DNA of 29,768 nucleotides from positions 1 through 29,768 of the IMG/VR virus record IMGVR_UViG_3300050821_019845, one strand, 5' to 3'. This DNA comes from a virus. The notes under the pieces were generated by a model, which was given only the letters and a program-made list of their open reading frames with translations, did no database searches and was not told the DNA's origin. The translations under genes and the position numbers were made by a program. Each line of letters opens with the position of its first letter. Within the stretch, counting starts at the first letter, position 1. Shown piece by piece: positions 73 through 25,342 of this stretch.

Positions 73-258
73 CTTCAAAATTTCCGCGCCGGAACCGACG
101 AAGCGTAGCTTCATCGGTTCCTTGATGATCCGATCAGACCAACGCTTGACGCTCGCCAGGATCCGCTCGCGATCAACAACCTGTTTTAAATCACAGGCAA
201 CTTTGTAGCGTTCCTGCAATTGCTCGGTGGTGGGTAGTTTGAGTTCAGTCTTGGACAC
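1..258 (-). CDS. Hypothetical protein with Ala-Ala-Arg/Trp repeats, partial (runs off left edge)
   Basis: An open leftward frame runs from a GTG at 258 to the window edge (86 codons, no stop). It starts MSKTELKLPTTEQ and continues through a charged helical stretch. The last 24 visible residues are eight AAR or AAW triplets, encoded by 9-bp repeats at 1-72. The GTG start overlaps the end of the upstream gene (stop 245-247) by 14 nt, as expected for translational coupling in this operon. No family is recognised. Alanine-rich repeats with regular Arg/Trp suggest an extended helix. The C-terminus is missing, so length and function cannot be judged. The start is inferred; no ATG precedes the repeats in this frame near the overlap. 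Confidence 0.55.
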   Translation of the reverse strand, partial: MSKTELKLPTTEQLQERYKVACDLKQVVDRERILASVKRWSDRIIKEPMKLRFVGSGAEILKAARAAWAARAARAARAAWAAWAAR

Positions 259-706
259 GGCGAATTTCTCCACGGTTATAGCCACGCTGCGGCTCTTGGT
301 TATGGTTGCCTTCCAGAATTGCATGAACGTCGTGCTCCCCATGTTTGAGGAGCGTGAAGCGGCCGCTGATGCTGGCCACGCCATCAGTCTGGCTGAGGTC
401 GCTATGCGAGAAAGCGACCTTACCGAGTTTCGGATGATTGACGATAACGCGGAGCTTGTTCTGTTCGACGATCGGGAACTTCCCTTTTATGGATATTCCG
501 ATGAGATTGTAATGCAGGTTGCCGGTCTCGTCGCGGAACTGCACGCTGGCCTTATCATCGATATAATGCGGATTACCGTTCGAGGTTCCGAGTGCGACGA
601 TGATCCTCCCGTTGACTCGTGGAACTTTAGTGAGTCCCTTTTTAGGCAAAGAGTCGACGCGCTTCATAAGCACATCGCCCTGGCGGTAGTGTTTTTTGGT
701 GTTCAT
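245..706 (-). CDS. QGDVL-type phage/bacterial protein of unknown function
   Basis: A 153-aa soluble protein. The N-terminus has the RQGDVLMKRVDSLP pattern and the C-terminus has HGEHDVHAI...QRGY...IRRVQD. This pairing of an N-terminal QGDVL motif with a C-terminal H-x-EH / QREY-like / IRRV-D motif is shared, from memory, by a widespread uncharacterised family. In that family a TGH-H motif usually lies in the middle; here the matching place reads NGNPHYI. It lies 14 bp downstream of the MazG/DnaA-like gene and overlaps the next gene, so it belongs to the early operon. No enzymatic role is known to me. Confidence 0.7.
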   Translation of the reverse strand: MNTKKHYRQGDVLMKRVDSLPKKGLTKVPRVNGRIIVALGTSNGNPHYIDDKASVQFRDETGNLHYNLIGISIKGKFPIVEQNKLRVIVNHPKLGKVAFSHSDLSQTDGVASISGRFTLLKHGEHDVHAILEGNHNQEPQRGYNRGEIRRVQD

Positions 707-720
707 GGTGAAAATTTAGT

Positions 721-1437
721 TCACTGATTGGATGCTTTTTTCTCTGGCGCTGATGGCGGGCTTAAAAGGTCTAGAACTTCAGTTTCGATTATCTCGAAAC
801 TGAGTTTAAAATTGGCATCGGTCTCCATCCGCTCATCGACTGATTCGCACGCGTACAAGACCGTGCTGTGATTAAAATTACCGAAGGCTTTCCCCACTTC
901 GTCTTGAGAGAGCCGCGTGTGTTCGTAAGCCAACTTCATTGCGCACTGCCGGCAAAGCGCCACGCGCTGCCGGCGATCATGGATCGCCAAACATTCAACA
1001 GGTATCCCGAAAGACTCGGCGCATTTATTTTTGATGAGATCAAGTTTGGCGATTTCGCCGTTCCAGCAGAGATGACGGATGATTATGGATTTATCCGGTT
1101 CCGGTTTTATTTGGACTACAACTGATGGCGGCGTATTTTTTAACGCTCGGTACATGATCGCATCGCTCCAGGCCAGGGCGACGGCAGCGATATCGGCCAG
1201 CTCGGCACGCAAGCGTTCAGGATCGACCTCGCAGGCGACCTCGTGCAGTTCCTCACGCAGAATTGTCATCCAGGATATGCTGCCTGTTGCGCGTTCATGT
1301 TCGGTCTGCGCCTTGGATGAGGCTGCGCGGGCACGGCGCCGGCTATTCGCGGCCGTGCCATCAGGATAATCCTTTCGGCCAAATTTCTCGATGGCATGCT
1401 GCTGCGCATCGAGCATGAGATGGAGCGAAGTTTTCAC
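721..1437 (-). CDS. Fusion protein: MazG-like N-terminal region plus DnaA domain IV
   Basis: A 238-aa protein with two recognisable parts. Residues about 55-95 contain W-x-x-IL-x-EEL-x-E and, further on, RAELADIAAVALAW. These match the helical acidic-residue pattern of phage MazG-like proteins (E62, E63 and E66 with D82 as candidate metal ligands). Residues about 130-210 match DnaA domain IV, the DnaA-box-binding HTH: RRQRVALCRQCAMKLAYE, then VGKAFGNFNHSTVLYA, equivalent to the DnaA signature G-RDH-TV-HA. No AAA+ ATPase domain is present. Its ATG overlaps the gam stop by 4 bp (ATGA), so it is co-translated in the early operon. Probable roles are nucleotide-pool hydrolysis and/or sequence-specific DNA binding; neither is proven. 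Confidence 0.75.
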   Translation of the reverse strand: MKTSLHLMLDAQQHAIEKFGRKDYPDGTAANSRRRARAASSKAQTEHERATGSISWMTILREELHEVACEVDPERLRAELADIAAVALAWSDAIMYRALKNTPPSVVVQIKPEPDKSIIIRHLCWNGEIAKLDLIKNKCAESFGIPVECLAIHDRRQRVALCRQCAMKLAYEHTRLSQDEVGKAFGNFNHSTVLYACESVDERMETDANFKLSFEIIETEVLDLLSPPSAPEKKASNQ

Positions 1438-1985
1438 GGGGATTCGGTTTCCTTCGCGCCCTCTTCGAGAATTTTGGCAATGACCTTGTCGAGATCGGAG
1501 TCGGCTGCCTTGATGATTATCTTGTCGCCGACCTCCTCGATCGTGACGCCGATCCGCTTGAGATCGACGCCATCCAGATTGGCCAGGGCATCGCGGGACG
1601 GCTTTCGCTCGGTGACGATCAAGATTTCCGCCTGATCGGGAAGATGTTTTTCGATGAGCGCGATCACGCGCGCATCATCCTCCCAGGTGAGCTTTCCTTT
1701 GCCCTTCTGGAAGCCGACTTTTACTCCATGGAGCGTGAATGTGCGAGGCTTGATAAAGAGGTCCGGCGCGGCCGCAATCGCGCGCTGGAGGTCATCCTGC
1801 GCGGTTTTGGCGATGGCCAGGGCGGATCGTATGCCGGGCAACCGGCGATTGCGGACCTGGTGCAATTCGGCTTCGAGGGAAGCCACGCGTTCAGCCAGGA
1901 CTTCCCGGACAGTTGCGTAATCCCTGGCGAGAAGATCGATCGCATCGAGCGCCGCCTGGGTGGGAGTTGAAATAATATGTGTCAT
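1434..1985 (-). CDS. gam: Mu Gam-like host-nuclease inhibitor / DNA-end protector
   Basis: A 183-aa protein. Residues 10-75 are a long helical, coiled-coil-like stretch with a charged middle (LEAELHQVRNRR). They are followed by RTFTLHGVKVGF (81-92) and GKGKLTWED (95-103), the conserved core of the Mu Gam family. The end PDQAEILI...KRIGVTIEEVGDKIIIKA also fits the family. Mu Gam binds double-stranded DNA ends as a dimer, is Ku-like, and shields linear phage DNA from exonucleases. Size and early-operon position downstream of A and B match Mu. The start at 1985 is the first Met and lies 5 bp after the stop of the upstream gene. Confidence 0.9.
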   Translation of the reverse strand: MTHIISTPTQAALDAIDLLARDYATVREVLAERVASLEAELHQVRNRRLPGIRSALAIAKTAQDDLQRAIAAAPDLFIKPRTFTLHGVKVGFQKGKGKLTWEDDARVIALIEKHLPDQAEILIVTERKPSRDALANLDGVDLKRIGVTIEEVGDKIIIKAADSDLDKVIAKILEEGAKETESP

Positions 1986-3014: not shown

Positions 3015-4130
3015 TTATTCCTTTCCGCTTTTGAGGCCCGCGATGATGCCGTAGGCCTTGGTGAAATGTTCCCACCCGAAGGCCTTGCCTTGTTTCTTGG
3101 CGATCTTCTTGCCGAAGCGGATGAACTCGGTGAGCGCGGTCAGCCCGCGCGTCTTGTTTACATCGCGCACAATCTCCAGCGTCTCGCCCTGGGGCCAGTC
3201 CAGGTCCACGCTCTTGAAGATCGCGCGCAGATCGCCATCGGTCGGGCACGGCGGCAGCTGCAGCTGGAAGATGCCGCGGCGCTCCATCTGTTCGAGGAGG
3301 TGCTTGTCCTTCCCATCCGCGAGTTCGTCGCGCCAGATATTGGTCCCGATCAGGACCATTCCGCAACCGGTCATGTCGTGCAGCCAGCGCAGCAGCTCGA
3401 CGCAGGATAGCTTCGACCGGTTCTTATAGGTGAAAGTCAGCTCGTGGATTTCATCGATCAGCAGGAGATTGTCCTTGTCGATCGCCTTCACGATCCGGCG
3501 CTTCAGGTTGTCGAAGCCGGTCTTTGGCGAGATCGCGCACTGGATGGCGAGCTGGCGCATGAGCTCGTGCGTGCCGCTAGCCGGCTCGATGCGGATATAT
3601 TTCGTTCGGCCGTGATTGTGCGCGGCCTGGTATTCCTTGAGCGCCGTGGTCTTTCCTGTCTGGCTTGGCCCATAGATGCTGCCGATCCGGTTGCTCTCGG
3701 CGCACAGCTCGCAAATCTGGTGAATCTTGCGCGCCGTTGGCGTCAGCACGAAGGCAACGCCATCGCGCTTGACGTGCTGCTCGATCTCTTTTCGAAAATC
3801 GATGATATTGCGGATCAGCTTGGCCGGGACGATTTTTTTGCCGCCATCGTCAACGTAACGGCCGCGATAGACGCGGTGCAACGTGGAGTGATCGACGCCG
3901 ACGTGCTTTGCCGCCTCGGTGCTGCTGATTTCCGACTCGATGCAGTAGAAAAAGAACCAGCGCAGGGCTTCGCGGTCCTCTTCCGCCATGTGCGCGGTGT
4001 TCTGTGTGACCTCGTCGCCTCCGATATTCCAGGAGGAGCGGGGATTGTTGCCGTCATTGGTATCGGCTGGCCGAGCATCTTCGACGCCTGTTGATGCGGA
4101 ATCAGTGTGGACTGTGGTTGTAGTGAGCAT
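3015..4130 (-). CDS. B: MuB-like AAA+ ATPase, transposition target protein
   Basis: A 371-aa protein. An N-terminal HTH-like segment (about 68-92, SSTEAAKHVGVDHSTLHRVYRG) precedes a P-loop ATPase. Walker A is GPSQTGKTT (154-162) and Walker B is LLLIDEIHE (222-230). An arginine-rich region (MERRG) lies near the place of sensor/Arg-finger residues. In Mu, B binds target DNA in an ATP-dependent filament, stimulates the transposase and gives target immunity. The HTH-plus-AAA order and its place directly downstream of the A-like transposase match Mu. The start is the first Met after an intergenic gap of 17 bp. Phage-specific N-terminal residues 1-50 are low-complexity. Confidence 0.9.
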   Translation of the reverse strand: MLTTTTVHTDSASTGVEDARPADTNDGNNPRSSWNIGGDEVTQNTAHMAEEDREALRWFFFYCIESEISSTEAAKHVGVDHSTLHRVYRGRYVDDGGKKIVPAKLIRNIIDFRKEIEQHVKRDGVAFVLTPTARKIHQICELCAESNRIGSIYGPSQTGKTTALKEYQAAHNHGRTKYIRIEPASGTHELMRQLAIQCAISPKTGFDNLKRRIVKAIDKDNLLLIDEIHELTFTYKNRSKLSCVELLRWLHDMTGCGMVLIGTNIWRDELADGKDKHLLEQMERRGIFQLQLPPCPTDGDLRAIFKSVDLDWPQGETLEIVRDVNKTRGLTALTEFIRFGKKIAKKQGKAFGWEHFTKAYGIIAGLKSGKE

Positions 4131-4147: not shown

Positions 4148-6427
4148 TTAGTTGATCAGTTCATCCAGGTCATTTTTTGGATTGGATTCTGGAAATGGAG
4201 CCTTAGCGGGGCTGATGGCCGTGCCGCCGGTGAGATCGTCGAGCGAGACATCGTCGGCACTGGCGGCCGCCTCGCTCGCGCGCCTGGCGCGGCCTTCCTG
4301 CTCGGCCTCGGTGTTGGCGATCCCGGCGGCGAGCTGCTCGCGATATACCGTGAACGCATCGCGGGCGGGGGCATGCCGGCCGAGCTTCATGGAAAGGGAT
4401 GCCACCGCCGGCCGGCCGGGCGTTTCCGCGTTTTTCGAAATTATCTGCTTTTCTTGTCGAGTTTGTGCAGTCGGTTCAGCGGGCGGTGGCAAAAGTTTTT
4501 CCGGCACACCCCATCCAGCGAGGAGCGACCGGTTGTGCGCGGCATCCGCCGCGAGCTGGGCATCCTCCGCGGTATGGCGGGCGCGGACAGGATTGAGAAC
4601 GTGCTTGGTGATGAGCCGCGTGATCTCGCCGGCCTCCGCGCTGATGGCGGCATGGTCGCGGATGTCGATCGCACCGCGGCGTTTCACACTCCCGCACGGC
4701 AGGCCGTTAAGATGCGTGCAGTGCAGGCGATCCGGGCGCGTCGGGTCGAAATAGCCGAGCAGTTCCGTGCCTTCCGGTAGCGATAGGACCGGCGAATCGG
4801 CGTCGGCGAAGGTGTAGCCCTCGCTCAGATGGGAGAAAGTAATCTTGTGGTTTTTCAGCTGCACCCGCTTTGGCGTGAGTAGCAGGCACGCGAGGACATG
4901 CTCTGGAACCTTCTGGAACGAAATCCCCTGGCTGATGCGGACCCAGCGCTCGCGCGGGCTTTCCATGCGCGGGACTGGTGTGCAGGCGAGGACCTGGTCG
5001 CGATCGAGAATGGTGAGCTGCGCCTCCGGCACGATGCTTGAGCGGTCAGGCAGCATGTATTCAACGACCTCGGCGAAGCCCTGCATGTGATGCCTGGTCC
5101 GCTCTTCCATCCTGGCGAAGATGCGATCGTAGGCCGTGAGCGCGTCCTCGAATTTCATGAACTGCACGCGTAGCTGGGAGAGCTGCTCGGCGGTGAGGCC
5201 TTCGGTCGAAAGAAGTTTTTCGGAGTAGAGAAGCTTGGCCTCCAGGTCGCCGGGCTTGAGCTGATAGCAGGAGCCTTTTTGCCCTGGCAGCGAGGCCGCC
5301 ATGTTGGCCATCAAATTGTAGAAGCTCTCAATCCAGCCCTTTTCCCAAGGCTTGCCTCCGCGTTCCACGAAGCCATTGCGCAGCGTCTTGTCCGCGAGCA
5401 GCCCCGTCCTGGCCACCTGGACGCCGAGCAGCAGTTCAAGAGATAATTCGAAGTCGCTGCTGATGGCAGCCGAGGCGTTTTCGCAGAGGATCGTGACGCC
5501 ATAGCCCTGCGGGATGCCGTGATCCATGAAGATGCCGTAGAGGAGGCCCTGGACATCGTGGCGCGTGATCGAGAGACGCTTGCCTTCATCGCTCTTGAAA
5601 CGAGGTTTCAAGCCGTGGGAAAGTTTCCTGCTCGTGGCCACATCGATGGCCACGAGACCAGTGCAGGTGCAAAGCTCATAGCGGCCGGTCTCGGGATGCC
5701 TCGCCTGGACAATCTGATCGCTCTCGAAATCGTCGATCGTAATCAGCTCCATCGGACGCAGCTGGCTGCGATCGCGGACCAGGTGGGGGAGGTAACGCTT
5801 GGCGGCCGCGAAGCCGCGGCGCTTGAGCGCCCGCTCGGCCTTGGACGATTGCTTGGTGTAGAGATTGGACGTGGACCAGCCCTTGGGAAAAAAGCCCATG
5901 GGAAAACGGACGGGCAAATCGCGCTCGGGAAATTCGGTGAGGAAAAATTCGCTCCAGGTCCCGTAGCCAGGGATGGATTTTCCGGCGCACCATTCGGCCT
6001 TGATTTCCTGCATGGCCTGGCGGGCGCCGCGGCTATTCTGCTCGACCCTCATGCGGACGAATTCGATGAATTCCTTCGGCAGAGAGGTCGGGCCGCGGTA
6101 CTGCCTGACCAGCACGCGCCAGTCGCGCTTCGAATTGCGGAAGGCATAGTAAAGGCGCTGCAAGGTCTTCGCGGAGAAACCCGGCTCCGAGTTGGTGAGT
6201 GCGATGCGCTGTGATGCCGCGACCACGCCCTCGGGCCCGGCTTCCATCTCGTCGAAGAACCCAAGCAGGAGCCCTACGCGCAGCCTGTCCTCCTGCGTCG
6301 TCGATTGGTAGAACTGCTCGTGATGCTGCAGCGGCACGATCTTCGCGAGGCTTACGGGCACTTCCGCGCTAGTATCGGCCTTCGGGGCGGCAGGATCGAT
6401 CGAAAGTAGTGCAGAGGCGGTTTGCAT
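4148..6427 (-). CDS. A: MuA-like DDE-family transposase
   Basis: A 759-aa protein. Residues about 35-150 are an N-terminal DNA-binding region with HTH-like helices (SAKTLQRLYYAFR). A retroviral-integrase-like core follows: ELITIDDFESDQ (D231/D232), then GIPQGYGVTILCENAS (316-317), then KGWIESFYNLMA (E367). A Mu-type beta-barrel is inferred around 470-600 (FSHLSEGYTFAD...LLGYFDPTRPDRLHC). The C-terminal 150 residues are low-complexity and should contact B. It would cut and join phage ends for replicative transposition. The second catalytic position reads Glu (E316) rather than the expected Asp. The gene starts 2 bp after the DUF3102 stop and is longer than Mu A (663 aa). Confidence 0.9.
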   Translation of the reverse strand: MQTASALLSIDPAAPKADTSAEVPVSLAKIVPLQHHEQFYQSTTQEDRLRVGLLLGFFDEMEAGPEGVVAASQRIALTNSEPGFSAKTLQRLYYAFRNSKRDWRVLVRQYRGPTSLPKEFIEFVRMRVEQNSRGARQAMQEIKAEWCAGKSIPGYGTWSEFFLTEFPERDLPVRFPMGFFPKGWSTSNLYTKQSSKAERALKRRGFAAAKRYLPHLVRDRSQLRPMELITIDDFESDQIVQARHPETGRYELCTCTGLVAIDVATSRKLSHGLKPRFKSDEGKRLSITRHDVQGLLYGIFMDHGIPQGYGVTILCENASAAISSDFELSLELLLGVQVARTGLLADKTLRNGFVERGGKPWEKGWIESFYNLMANMAASLPGQKGSCYQLKPGDLEAKLLYSEKLLSTEGLTAEQLSQLRVQFMKFEDALTAYDRIFARMEERTRHHMQGFAEVVEYMLPDRSSIVPEAQLTILDRDQVLACTPVPRMESPRERWVRISQGISFQKVPEHVLACLLLTPKRVQLKNHKITFSHLSEGYTFADADSPVLSLPEGTELLGYFDPTRPDRLHCTHLNGLPCGSVKRRGAIDIRDHAAISAEAGEITRLITKHVLNPVRARHTAEDAQLAADAAHNRSLLAGWGVPEKLLPPPAEPTAQTRQEKQIISKNAETPGRPAVASLSMKLGRHAPARDAFTVYREQLAAGIANTEAEQEGRARRASEAAASADDVSLDDLTGGTAISPAKAPFPESNPKNDLDELIN

Positions 6428-22305: not shown

Positions 22306-22971
22306 ATGAAAGTTGTCTTCGGCACAGTCAGCCTTACGCCCAGCGATGTGGAGACCACGGCCGGGCTCACCGTCAATGGCGAGCAAGTCAATGACACCGC
22401 CCAATTCTACCGCGCCCTGGCCGAGACATTCTTCGGCCGGGGAAATCGCAGTGCGACGATCGGCTTCTCCGTTCTTCGCATCTTCGATACAGCGCGCATC
22501 GCCGGGCGCTTCTGTTTCGAACATCTCACCCTTCTGCCCCTACAGGATTCGCTTTATATCACGGTGGGCGACGATGTGGATAACGAGGTTGTTCGGTTCG
22601 ATGGGGCCGTTCCCCAGGCTGTTCCCATCACCGTCAAGGGAGGCGTCAGCGTCCAGGTCAATTATTCATTCCTATGCGGCCTGCCTGTTTTCAACAGCAC
22701 TCCCGCCAATGTCGTCGAACCCAGCAGCAGCATGATCCAACGCATCAATGTTCCTCTCACGGCAGGCGATACCAGCAAGGTCATCACCTGGCCTTCGGCC
22801 TTTGGTTCGCTACCGGTGGTTTCACGGCCGAGCGTGGAAGTGCCCGATGGCAGCGACTGGATTGATGCCTGGGTCATCGCCGGCACGCCCTCAACCACGG
22901 GTTGCACCGTCAAATTCAACGCGCCGATTCCGGGCAGCGGATATTCCGTGTCTCTCGTCGCATGCGCTTGA
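22306..22971 (+). CDS. Beta-rich tail protein, possible adhesin/tail-tip component
   Basis: A 221-aa protein. The N-terminal 110 residues read like a second tail component (FGTVSLTPSDVETTAGLTVNGEQVNDTAQFYRALAETFFGRGN). The last 75 residues (INVPLTAGDTSKVITWPSAFGSLPVVSRPSVEVP...AWVIAGTPSTTGCTVKFNAPIPGSGYSVSLVACA) resemble the compact C-terminal sandwich found at the end of tail fibres. Fusion of the two is plausible. The ATG at 22306 is chosen; an overlapping ATG at 22302 is out of frame. Confidence 0.5.
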   Translation: MKVVFGTVSLTPSDVETTAGLTVNGEQVNDTAQFYRALAETFFGRGNRSATIGFSVLRIFDTARIAGRFCFEHLTLLPLQDSLYITVGDDVDNEVVRFDGAVPQAVPITVKGGVSVQVNYSFLCGLPVFNSTPANVVEPSSSMIQRINVPLTAGDTSKVITWPSAFGSLPVVSRPSVEVPDGSDWIDAWVIAGTPSTTGCTVKFNAPIPGSGYSVSLVACA

Positions 22972-22978
22972 TTTTTCC

Positions 22979-25342
22979 ATGAAAAAACTATTTCTCATTT
23001 TTTGCCTGATGGTATCAAACTTGAGCGCGGGCATTACCTATACCGATCTTCATATCAACGGTAGTGCAGCCACGGTGAATTCTGGCGCCACACTCACTGT
23101 CCAATCGGGGGCAACATTAGCGATCGCGAGCGGCGCCATCCTTAATATTGCGGATGGGATTGCGACGACCAGCGGAGGGACCGGGCTAAATTCCTACGCC
23201 CAGGGCGACATCATTTATGCGAGCGCGACGAATGTGCTTTCGAAGCTTTCGAAAAACACTTCGGCAACCCGCTATTTGGCCAACACCGGCACGAGCAACA
23301 ATCCGGCATGGGATTTTATCAATCTCGCCAACGGCGTCACCGGGAACCTGCCAGTAGGAAATCTGTTCAGTGGAACCAATGCCGATGCCAGCCATTATTT
23401 ATCCGGCACAGGATGGGAAGTGCCAACATTCTCCGGAACCAGCGGGAATTTGACGGTGAATGGAACGGCGGGCGCAGGCTATCTCGAACTCCAAGCCCAA
23501 AGCTCCACTCCTGCCACGCCGGCGACCCATAATCTTCGAATTTATTCCGATGGTACGGGCCGCCTCTCGGTCAAAAATAATGCAGGCAATATCGCTTCAT
23601 TAGACTTCTCGGGCTTGTCTGCTGCTCGTGGATTTACTTTTCCAGATTCGACCGGTACAATCGCGCTGAATCAAACCTCTGCAGTTAATTATGGCATCAC
23701 CGGAGGTGCTTCGTTGGATGCCTTGGCCGCATTGAATTCAACGGGCACGATCTGTCAGACCGGTGCGTCAACATTTGCCGATCGAACGATCACGGCTGGA
23801 TCGGGAATAACCGTTACGAATGGAACCGGTGCGGCCGGTAATCCTACGATCGCATTGGCAAACATTCCGGATACGACGGCCATGCTTGGTTCCTTGCTAG
23901 CGACGAATGTCGCCGCGCCGTCGACACCGGCCACCGGGTATAGTTCGATCTATGTCGATTCCACCTCGAAGAACATCGCGGCGAAGAACGATGCCGGCAC
24001 CGTGAACCACGGCATTCAGAGCAACGCTGGGGCATCGCACAATTTCCTCACAGCGATCGCCGATGACGGATCTAGCACGAAGGCTCAGCCGGCATCGAGC
24101 GATCTTTCCGATTCCTCGAATATCCCGCTGCTCAACGCGGCCAATGTGTTTTCGAGTGCGACGGGGCAGTCGATGAAGAAACTGCTGCTTCCCGGTTCGA
24201 CCTCCGGCACATTGACGGTCATCGCGGCGGCGGCGGCCGGCACCAATACCATCACGTTACCAGCCGGGACCACGGATTTTTCCGCCACCGGCGGCACAAG
24301 CCAGGTGGTGAAGCAGACCAGCGCCGGCGGCGCCTTAACGGTCGGTCAATTGGCGCTGACTGACATCAGTGGCACGCTGCAGGCCAGCCAGGAGCCAGCC
24401 CATACTGGCGATGTGACGAACAGTGCCGGGTCACTGGCACTAGCGCTGCAAAATATTCCGTCCGCCACACCGATGGCCGGCTCCGAGCTTGCGACGAACA
24501 TCGCAGCCCCGGCCACGCCGGCCGCCGGCAAGACCTCGATCTATGTCGATTCCACCTCGAAGAACATCGCGGCGAAGAACGATGCCGGCACCGTGAACCA
24601 CGGCATTCAGAGCAACGCTGGGGCATCGCACAATTTCCTCACAGCGATCGCCGATGACGGATCTAGCACGAAGGCTCAGCCCGCCGCCAGCGACATCACT
24701 GGCCTGGCGGCATCAGCCACTACCGATACGACCAATGCCAGTAATATTTCGAGTGGAACATTGGCTGCGGCGCGTGTTGCCATACTTAATCAAAATACCA
24801 CCGGAAGCGCCGCAACATTAACAACAGCCCGCGCAATTAACGGAATAAATTTCGATGGTTCGGCAAATATCACTGTCCATGATTATCCCACCACTTTGCT
24901 TAATTTCGCTCAAGCAACCGATATTGGGCAAATTACGGCGGCAGGTTCAACTTGGGTGACGGTTGTCCCTGATCAAACTTTTACCGTTACTAATGCCAGC
25001 GCACCAATCGAGATTTTTGTCCGCTGCTCTATTTTAGCGAAGGATGATAACATATCAGTCGGCACTACCATGAATGGAATTTGCCGCATTGATATTGATG
25101 ATGGCGGTCAGCAATACCGGCTTGGCGCATCTGGCAATGAGGGATCATTGAGTAATAATGCCCGCACCTATATTCCAGGTGGCACTGTGAGCATTGGCAC
25201 ATTATCCGCAGGCTCTCATACCATCCGAATTCAGGCGGCGAGTGAGAACGATTTAAGCAGCGGTTTGTCAGGATTTTATTTGCGCGCTAGCACCACTGGC
25301 TTTTCAGAATTCGCCTTAATCCAGGTGATTCAGAGGGGATAA
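22979..25342 (+). CDS. Long tail fibre with N-terminal signal-like segment and internal duplication
   Basis: A 787-aa protein from the ATG at 22979. Upstream open codons overlap the previous gene and are not used. It starts with a signal-peptide-like MKKLFLIFCLMVSNLSAG, then GATLTVQSGATLAIASGAIL repeats, then fibre modules (TTSGGTGLNSYAQGDIIYAS, GVTGNLPVGNLFSGTNADASHYL). Two copies of a 48-residue module beginning SIYVDSTSKNIAAKNDAG occur at about 323-370 and 520-567. The C-terminal 150 residues (QITAAGSTWVTVVPDQTF...GSHTIRIQAASENDLSSG...FALIQVIQRG) form the likely tip. It would bind the host receptor. Confidence 0.75.
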   Translation: MKKLFLIFCLMVSNLSAGITYTDLHINGSAATVNSGATLTVQSGATLAIASGAILNIADGIATTSGGTGLNSYAQGDIIYASATNVLSKLSKNTSATRYLANTGTSNNPAWDFINLANGVTGNLPVGNLFSGTNADASHYLSGTGWEVPTFSGTSGNLTVNGTAGAGYLELQAQSSTPATPATHNLRIYSDGTGRLSVKNNAGNIASLDFSGLSAARGFTFPDSTGTIALNQTSAVNYGITGGASLDALAALNSTGTICQTGASTFADRTITAGSGITVTNGTGAAGNPTIALANIPDTTAMLGSLLATNVAAPSTPATGYSSIYVDSTSKNIAAKNDAGTVNHGIQSNAGASHNFLTAIADDGSSTKAQPASSDLSDSSNIPLLNAANVFSSATGQSMKKLLLPGSTSGTLTVIAAAAAGTNTITLPAGTTDFSATGGTSQVVKQTSAGGALTVGQLALTDISGTLQASQEPAHTGDVTNSAGSLALALQNIPSATPMAGSELATNIAAPATPAAGKTSIYVDSTSKNIAAKNDAGTVNHGIQSNAGASHNFLTAIADDGSSTKAQPAASDITGLAASATTDTTNASNISSGTLAAARVAILNQNTTGSAATLTTARAINGINFDGSANITVHDYPTTLLNFAQATDIGQITAAGSTWVTVVPDQTFTVTNASAPIEIFVRCSILAKDDNISVGTTMNGICRIDIDDGGQQYRLGASGNEGSLSNNARTYIPGGTVSIGTLSAGSHTIRIQAASENDLSSGLSGFYLRASTTGFSEFALIQVIQRG
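23945..24090 (+). repeat. 146-bp perfect direct repeat, copy 1
   Basis: Identical to 24536-24681, spaced 591 bp (197 codons), in frame. It lies in the tail-fibre gene. Confidence 0.97.
24536..24681 (+). repeat. 146-bp perfect direct repeat, copy 2
   Basis: Identical to 23945-24090. The flanks (NIPxxTxMxGSxLATNxAAPxTPA) are similar at the protein level only. The duplicated unit may therefore be longer and older, with the core kept identical by recombination or recent gene conversion. Confidence 0.97.

Follow-up and report, generated by a model that had tools for sequence, protein, structure and literature searches.

An early gene of a transposable phage fuses a phrog_2831 family domain, MazG-like in motif, to a DnaA domain IV without the AAA+ motor

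The window analysed is the whole of a 29,768-base IMG/VR virus record (IMGVR_UViG_3300050821_019845, positions 1–29,768), and its main features are collected in Table 1. Positions 721–1437, where the first-pass annotation had placed a MazG-like region fused to a DnaA domain IV in a transposable phage, correspond exactly to one minus-strand open reading frame of 238 aa with no internal stops. Genes for a MuB-like ATPase and a MuA-like transposase lie upstream in the same leftward operon, and the phage is therefore regarded as transposable, in agreement with that annotation, with transposase, ATPase and Gam together in one early region; relatives of the transposase showed 36–62% identity over the best segment. 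The gam stop and the GTG start of the fused gene overlap by 4 nt (GTGA), an arrangement that suggests translational coupling. A phrog_27831 gene (245–706, minus strand) adjoins the fused gene and also occurs in L003, near gam, and in L124. At its left end the contig begins within a tandem repeat with a unit of 9 bases (1–75), whose translation is (PGG)n-like or (AAx)n and which is likely an assembly break, and a long tail-fibre-like ORF (22748–25342) contains stretches that are repeated near-identically.

Table 1. Coordinates of the fused gene, its parts and the neighbouring operon genes in the window.
Feature	Position	Strand	Remarks
Fused gene	721..1437	-	single open frame, 238 aa; GTG start at 1437, stop 721-723
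DnaA domain IV, residues 133-200	838..1041	-	PF08299; structural match 1j1v, 3pvp
FNHSTVLYA recognition-helix signature, residues 188-196	850..876	-	H434, T436 kept; D433->N, T435->S
R155, equivalent of E. coli DnaA R399	973..975	-	alignment with 1j1v
Linker, residues 101-131	1045..1137	-	pLDDT low past about residue 105
N domain, residues 13-96	1150..1401	-	phrog_2831, PHROG E 2.7e-12
Internal ATG (M95), in frame	1153..1155	-	GGAG 10 nt upstream, read from sequence
ELAD, residues 79-82, candidate metal ligands	1192..1203	-	fourth helix
EELHE, residues 62-66, candidate metal ligands	1240..1254	-	third helix
Mu Gam-like gene	1434..1985	-	phrog_491 E 2e-12; PF07352 E 3.4e-6, slightly under cut-off
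MuB-like DNA transposition ATPase	3015..4130	-	phrog_296 E 2e-36
MuA-like transposase	4148..6427	-	phrog_310 E 4.9e-17

The C-terminal half of the fused protein is almost certainly a genuine DnaA domain IV. It matched Bac_DnaA_C (PF08299) over residues 133–200 with an E value of 2.9e-17 and a score of 62.9 bits (cut-off 31.5), and the E. coli DnaA domain IV (1j1v) with an E value of 2.7e-10. The two halves were modelled separately with AF2; the C-half model had a pLDDT of 90.5 and its best Foldseek matches in the PDB were 1j1v and M. tuberculosis 3pvp (probability 1.00, rmsd 1.0–1.7 Å, 93–96 columns). Profile search and structure prediction both returned domain IV, the FNHSTVLYA signature that had first been read as DnaA-like falls inside the PF08299 match, and the proposal of a DnaA domain IV within a transposable phage is supported by this match together with the MuA/MuB/Gam neighbourhood. 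Likeness to DnaA extends over sequence, helical fold and most of the DNA-contact residues: in the alignment with 1j1v, R399, R407, Q408, T418, H434 and T436 are kept, whereas D433, T435, P423 and H439 are changed to N, S, D and Y. Within the set R399, D433, H434 and T435, drawn from the DnaA residues that contact the box (PMC7561715), the arginine and the histidine are retained and the other two replaced. Binding to TTATNCACA would be expected of a PF08299 domain, and box binding by the fused protein is predicted. Unlike DnaA, the fused protein is without domains I–III; neither the AAA+ domain III nor the helicase-recruiting domain I was present, no Pfam domain other than Bac_DnaA_C was detected, as the first reading of the sequence had implied for the AAA+ domain, and the NCBIfam DnaA match was confined to the C-terminal 92 positions (66 versus 343.9 bits). 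A full-length DnaA initiator was ruled out on the absence of domains III and I.

The N-terminal half belongs with a phage-wide family whose phrog_2831 profile matched 23 of 23 aligned members, and its AF2 model (pLDDT 85.8) consists of four helices (residues 2–19, 32–51, 56–69 and 73–100). The EE..E (62–66) and E..D (79–82) motifs reported for this half are present, on two consecutive helices of the predicted four-helix domain, and together they read EExxE-x12-ExxD, in which E63, E66, E79 and D82 follow the type of spacing seen in MazG metal ligands; those of S. solfataricus MazG (1vmg) are E35, E38, E54 and D57 (PMC2954211). Among the 23 members (alignment A4), E62, E63, E66 and E79 are invariant, and the position of D82 holds Q in 20, with D only in the fused protein and in two transposable-phage relatives, L007 and L034. 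Small phage proteins of phrog_2831 and phrog_4022 share with the N half a KWGEQ..DGTG-type loop, EExxE, the E of ExxD and a helical make-up, but they mostly carry Q in place of D82 and no fusion to a DnaA domain IV was found among them.

The earlier description of this half as MazG-like is borne out for the metal-ligand motif and the predicted all-helical domain, but not to the level of the family. The Pfam MazG profile (PF03819) gave 12.9 bits (E 0.14), short of its 22-bit cut-off, and hhalign of the N family with six MazG sequences gave a best probability of 1%, equalled by shuffled columns, a weak negative from small alignments. Profile search and structure prediction of this half thus yielded phrog_2831 and four helices, without a weighty fold match in the PDB: Foldseek and VIA-align listed unrelated helical proteins only, and that MazG was not listed excludes nothing. 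In BFVD one relative of the N domain is named MazG-like (E 6e-3), and phrog_2831 relatives are otherwise annotated as hypothetical, NUDIX hydrolase or hydrolase domain protein. In contrast to MazG, two helices precede the motif and none follows it. We therefore call the N half MazG-like by motif, with membership of MazG not established. Nucleotide hydrolysis by this half is possible in view of the D82 kept in its branch, and only a possibility because the MazG threshold was missed and the profiles aligned no better than shuffled columns.

Relatives of the phage were reached via the transposase, Gam and alignments. Only L007 and L034 were found to carry both parts, as separate genes in each: in L007 the N domain and a DnaA-IV protein are encoded by adjoining genes shortly downstream of gam, and in L034, a prophage carried by an Opitutaceae MAG, the stop of gam is overlapped by the N gene, with the DnaA-IV gene following some 0.7 kb further along. 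In L004 a DnaA-IV protein with a different N-terminal part directly follows gam. Protein searches with the whole ORF or the N half found no full-length relative among viral contigs, species genomes and phage records; the N domain was not found in the other 372 genomes of the searched order nor, barring one weak match, in the rest of the 388 phylum genomes. As both parts are separate neighbouring genes in the sole relatives carrying both, their pairing in the window is likely a lineage-specific fusion, to judge from this gene layout. The fused protein is real and is a novel combination of known parts, possibly unique to the lineage of this phage. An in-frame ATG at M95 is a possible internal start that would yield the DnaA-IV part alone.

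The most similar prophage by transposase (genome G019, 60% identity) belongs to the same order as the Opitutaceae MAG of L034, and the phage host is therefore probably of an Opitutales type. In the DnaA of that MAG (L036:112–1785) the residue at E. coli position 435 is G (RDHGTVIHA); the phage proteins of L007 and L034 share this residue, a hint that recognition may be matched to the host. The DnaA-IV proteins of L007 (14140–14625), L034 (4901–5386) and L112 (5012–5584) have in common an alternative N-terminal domain of about 60 aa (EIEAxLxxxxCAxVxDGxxFALVYPxGxE), without a Pfam match in L007. Beyond the DnaA-IV gene lies a variable accessory zone (L007:14553–17489, L034:5808–6683, L004:13388–14455), which by inspection contains an ASCH-domain protein (L007), DUF5131-like genes and C5 cytosine methylase-like genes.

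A scan with four transposable-phage DnaA-IV domains gave 80 viral loci (L140–L219), an approximate figure that includes a few loci cut by contig ends. The best frame was without a Walker A motif at 79 of these loci, the sole Walker-like match was in a 287-aa frame that is too short for a normal DnaA, and full-length DnaA was shown at none of the 80. The AAA+-less proteins of viral contigs measure about 100–300 aa and, judging from these frames, appear to be widespread in phages and little noticed; the literature searched, subscription journals lying outside it, yielded neither a phage protein of the DnaA-IV-only kind nor a fusion between MazG and DnaA. Of 65 distinct DnaA-IV sequences, 64 retain R399 and all retain R407, conservation at 432–437 and partly at 399 and 407 being biased by the search patterns. 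The neighbouring genes of DnaA-IV, 72 of which were sampled without a background sample, most often match DnaB-like helicase, primase/helicase, O-like initiators and helicase loaders. The AAA+-less gene follows the transposition genes or gam in several transposable phages (L004, L007, L034, L112, L118, L127, L196 and L210), and since the N-terminal partners differ among these proteins, the DNA-binding part is the constant one. These stand-alone phage proteins (L140–L219, L004, L007 and L034) resemble the fused protein in their domain IV, in lacking AAA+ and in their early or replication-region position; their own N-terminal extensions, however, are short or unrelated, and none is fused to a phrog_2831 domain.

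DnaA boxes were counted as TTWTNCACA, with expectations from an order-2 Markov model and permuted patterns as control. In 56 non-redundant DnaA-IV loci 19 boxes were found against 42.7 expected, and 6 of 300 permuted patterns fell this low, whereas 38 gam loci without a DnaA-IV gene had an observed/expected ratio of 0.80, inside the permuted range; the depletion is modest and the control loci differ in composition. No DnaA-IV locus had three or more matches, and no cluster of canonical boxes was seen near DnaA-IV genes. As canonical boxes are fewer than expected in these loci, the result suggests non-phage DNA as the target of such proteins. The scan of phage DNA proposed by the first-pass annotation found a single consensus box in the 30-kb window, where about one is expected, and thus no depletion; its alternative, that the protein regulates the phage itself through such boxes, receives less weight on this count, and canonical boxes as phage operators were rejected.

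Mu-type replication by transposition is not known to depend on DnaA or to need an origin. We tentatively favour, with a probability of roughly 0.4, the reading that this early phage protein sits on the DnaA boxes of the host in competition with DnaA. As an early-region product of a transposable phage, the predicted DnaA-IV half would bind DnaA boxes, chiefly those of the host at oriC and at DnaA-controlled promoters, and competition with host DnaA would hold back host initiation during transposition-replication of the phage; the helical N domain may dimerise and so raise avidity, and may additionally hydrolyse a nucleotide. Redirection or blocking of host initiation, as originally proposed, is plausible for such a protein. 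This reading is consistent with the identity and fold of the DnaA-IV half, the retained equivalents of R399, R407, Q408, H434 and T436, the recurrence of DnaA-IV in transposable phages and the shortage of boxes. Against it, the N, S, D and Y at positions 433, 435, 423 and 439 could alter specificity or affinity, the box depletion is modest and nil in the window, and in non-transposable phages DnaA-IV genes lie beside helicase, helicase-loader and initiator genes, a setting that also fits a positive replication role.

Such a positive factor in replication or recombination, in which DnaA-IV marks a phage or host site and helps to recruit helicase loaders or the transposition machinery, appears somewhat unlikely here. 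The genes beside DnaA-IV in other phages match DnaB-like helicase, DnaC/DnaD-like loaders, O-like initiators, primase and primosomal proteins, the DnaA-IV gene of phage C72C1 is next to SSB and a Sak-like annealing protein, and the fused gene itself follows gam; however, boxes do not cluster near DnaA-IV genes, Mu-type replication is generally known to proceed without an origin, and no loader gene was seen beside the fused gene in the window. The substitutions at 423, 433, 435 and 439 would also suit a transcriptional regulator in which DnaA-IV serves as a plain helix-turn-helix of changed specificity and the N domain as a dimerisation module, and Bac_DnaA_C domains are indeed used outside DnaA, as in HuH transposase-like proteins whose flanking repeats are unlike DnaA boxes (PMC6006769). 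We consider a regulator of this kind unlikely, as the main base-reading residues are kept and no candidate operator repeat turned up in the early control region of the window.

Two further explanations concern the N half and the fusion. The N domain would be the active part if it were a MazG-type NTP pyrophosphohydrolase that DnaA-IV merely places near replication sites, and the agreement of its four candidate ligands with those of 1vmg (PMC2954211), together with a D82 confined to the fused protein and its two transposable-phage relatives in alignment A4, points that way; we judge this improbable given the missed MazG cut-off, the negative profile comparison, the lack of a weighty PDB fold match and a motif on the third and fourth helices with no helix beyond. 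Chance read-through or an assembly artefact that joined adjacent genes without combined function would account for a fusion that was seen in the window alone, and nowhere else including the 388 phylum and 373 order genomes, for the separate genes of L007 and L034, and for the differing G+C of the N half (60%), residues 99–131 (43%) and the C half (50%). Yet the frame is intact, the 31-residue linker contains no ATG, GTG or TTG, and both halves keep their family motifs, which leaves this explanation with very little probability. Also to be regarded with considerable doubt is a bolder form of the competition reading, whereby motorless DnaA proteins are widely phage-borne, occupy host start sites and have had such sites purged from phage DNA, and whereby the domain tethered here would cleave nucleotides and so hit initiation and the local nucleotide/alarmone pool together.

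To our knowledge, the phage proteins that act on DnaA all bind the DnaA protein. Phage action against DnaA has precedents, by a different route, in lambda P and YfdR (PMC4776307): they resemble the outcome proposed here in that host initiation is hindered, but they bind DnaA itself, whereas the fused protein would occupy its DNA sites. A motorless DnaA domain IV made by a phage would thereby provide a simple and portable switch-off of host initiation. Our scan suggests that phages commonly encode DnaA-IV-only proteins, with repeated occurrences among the transposable ones, and this wider class of motorless DnaA proteins is a more interesting lead than the single fusion.
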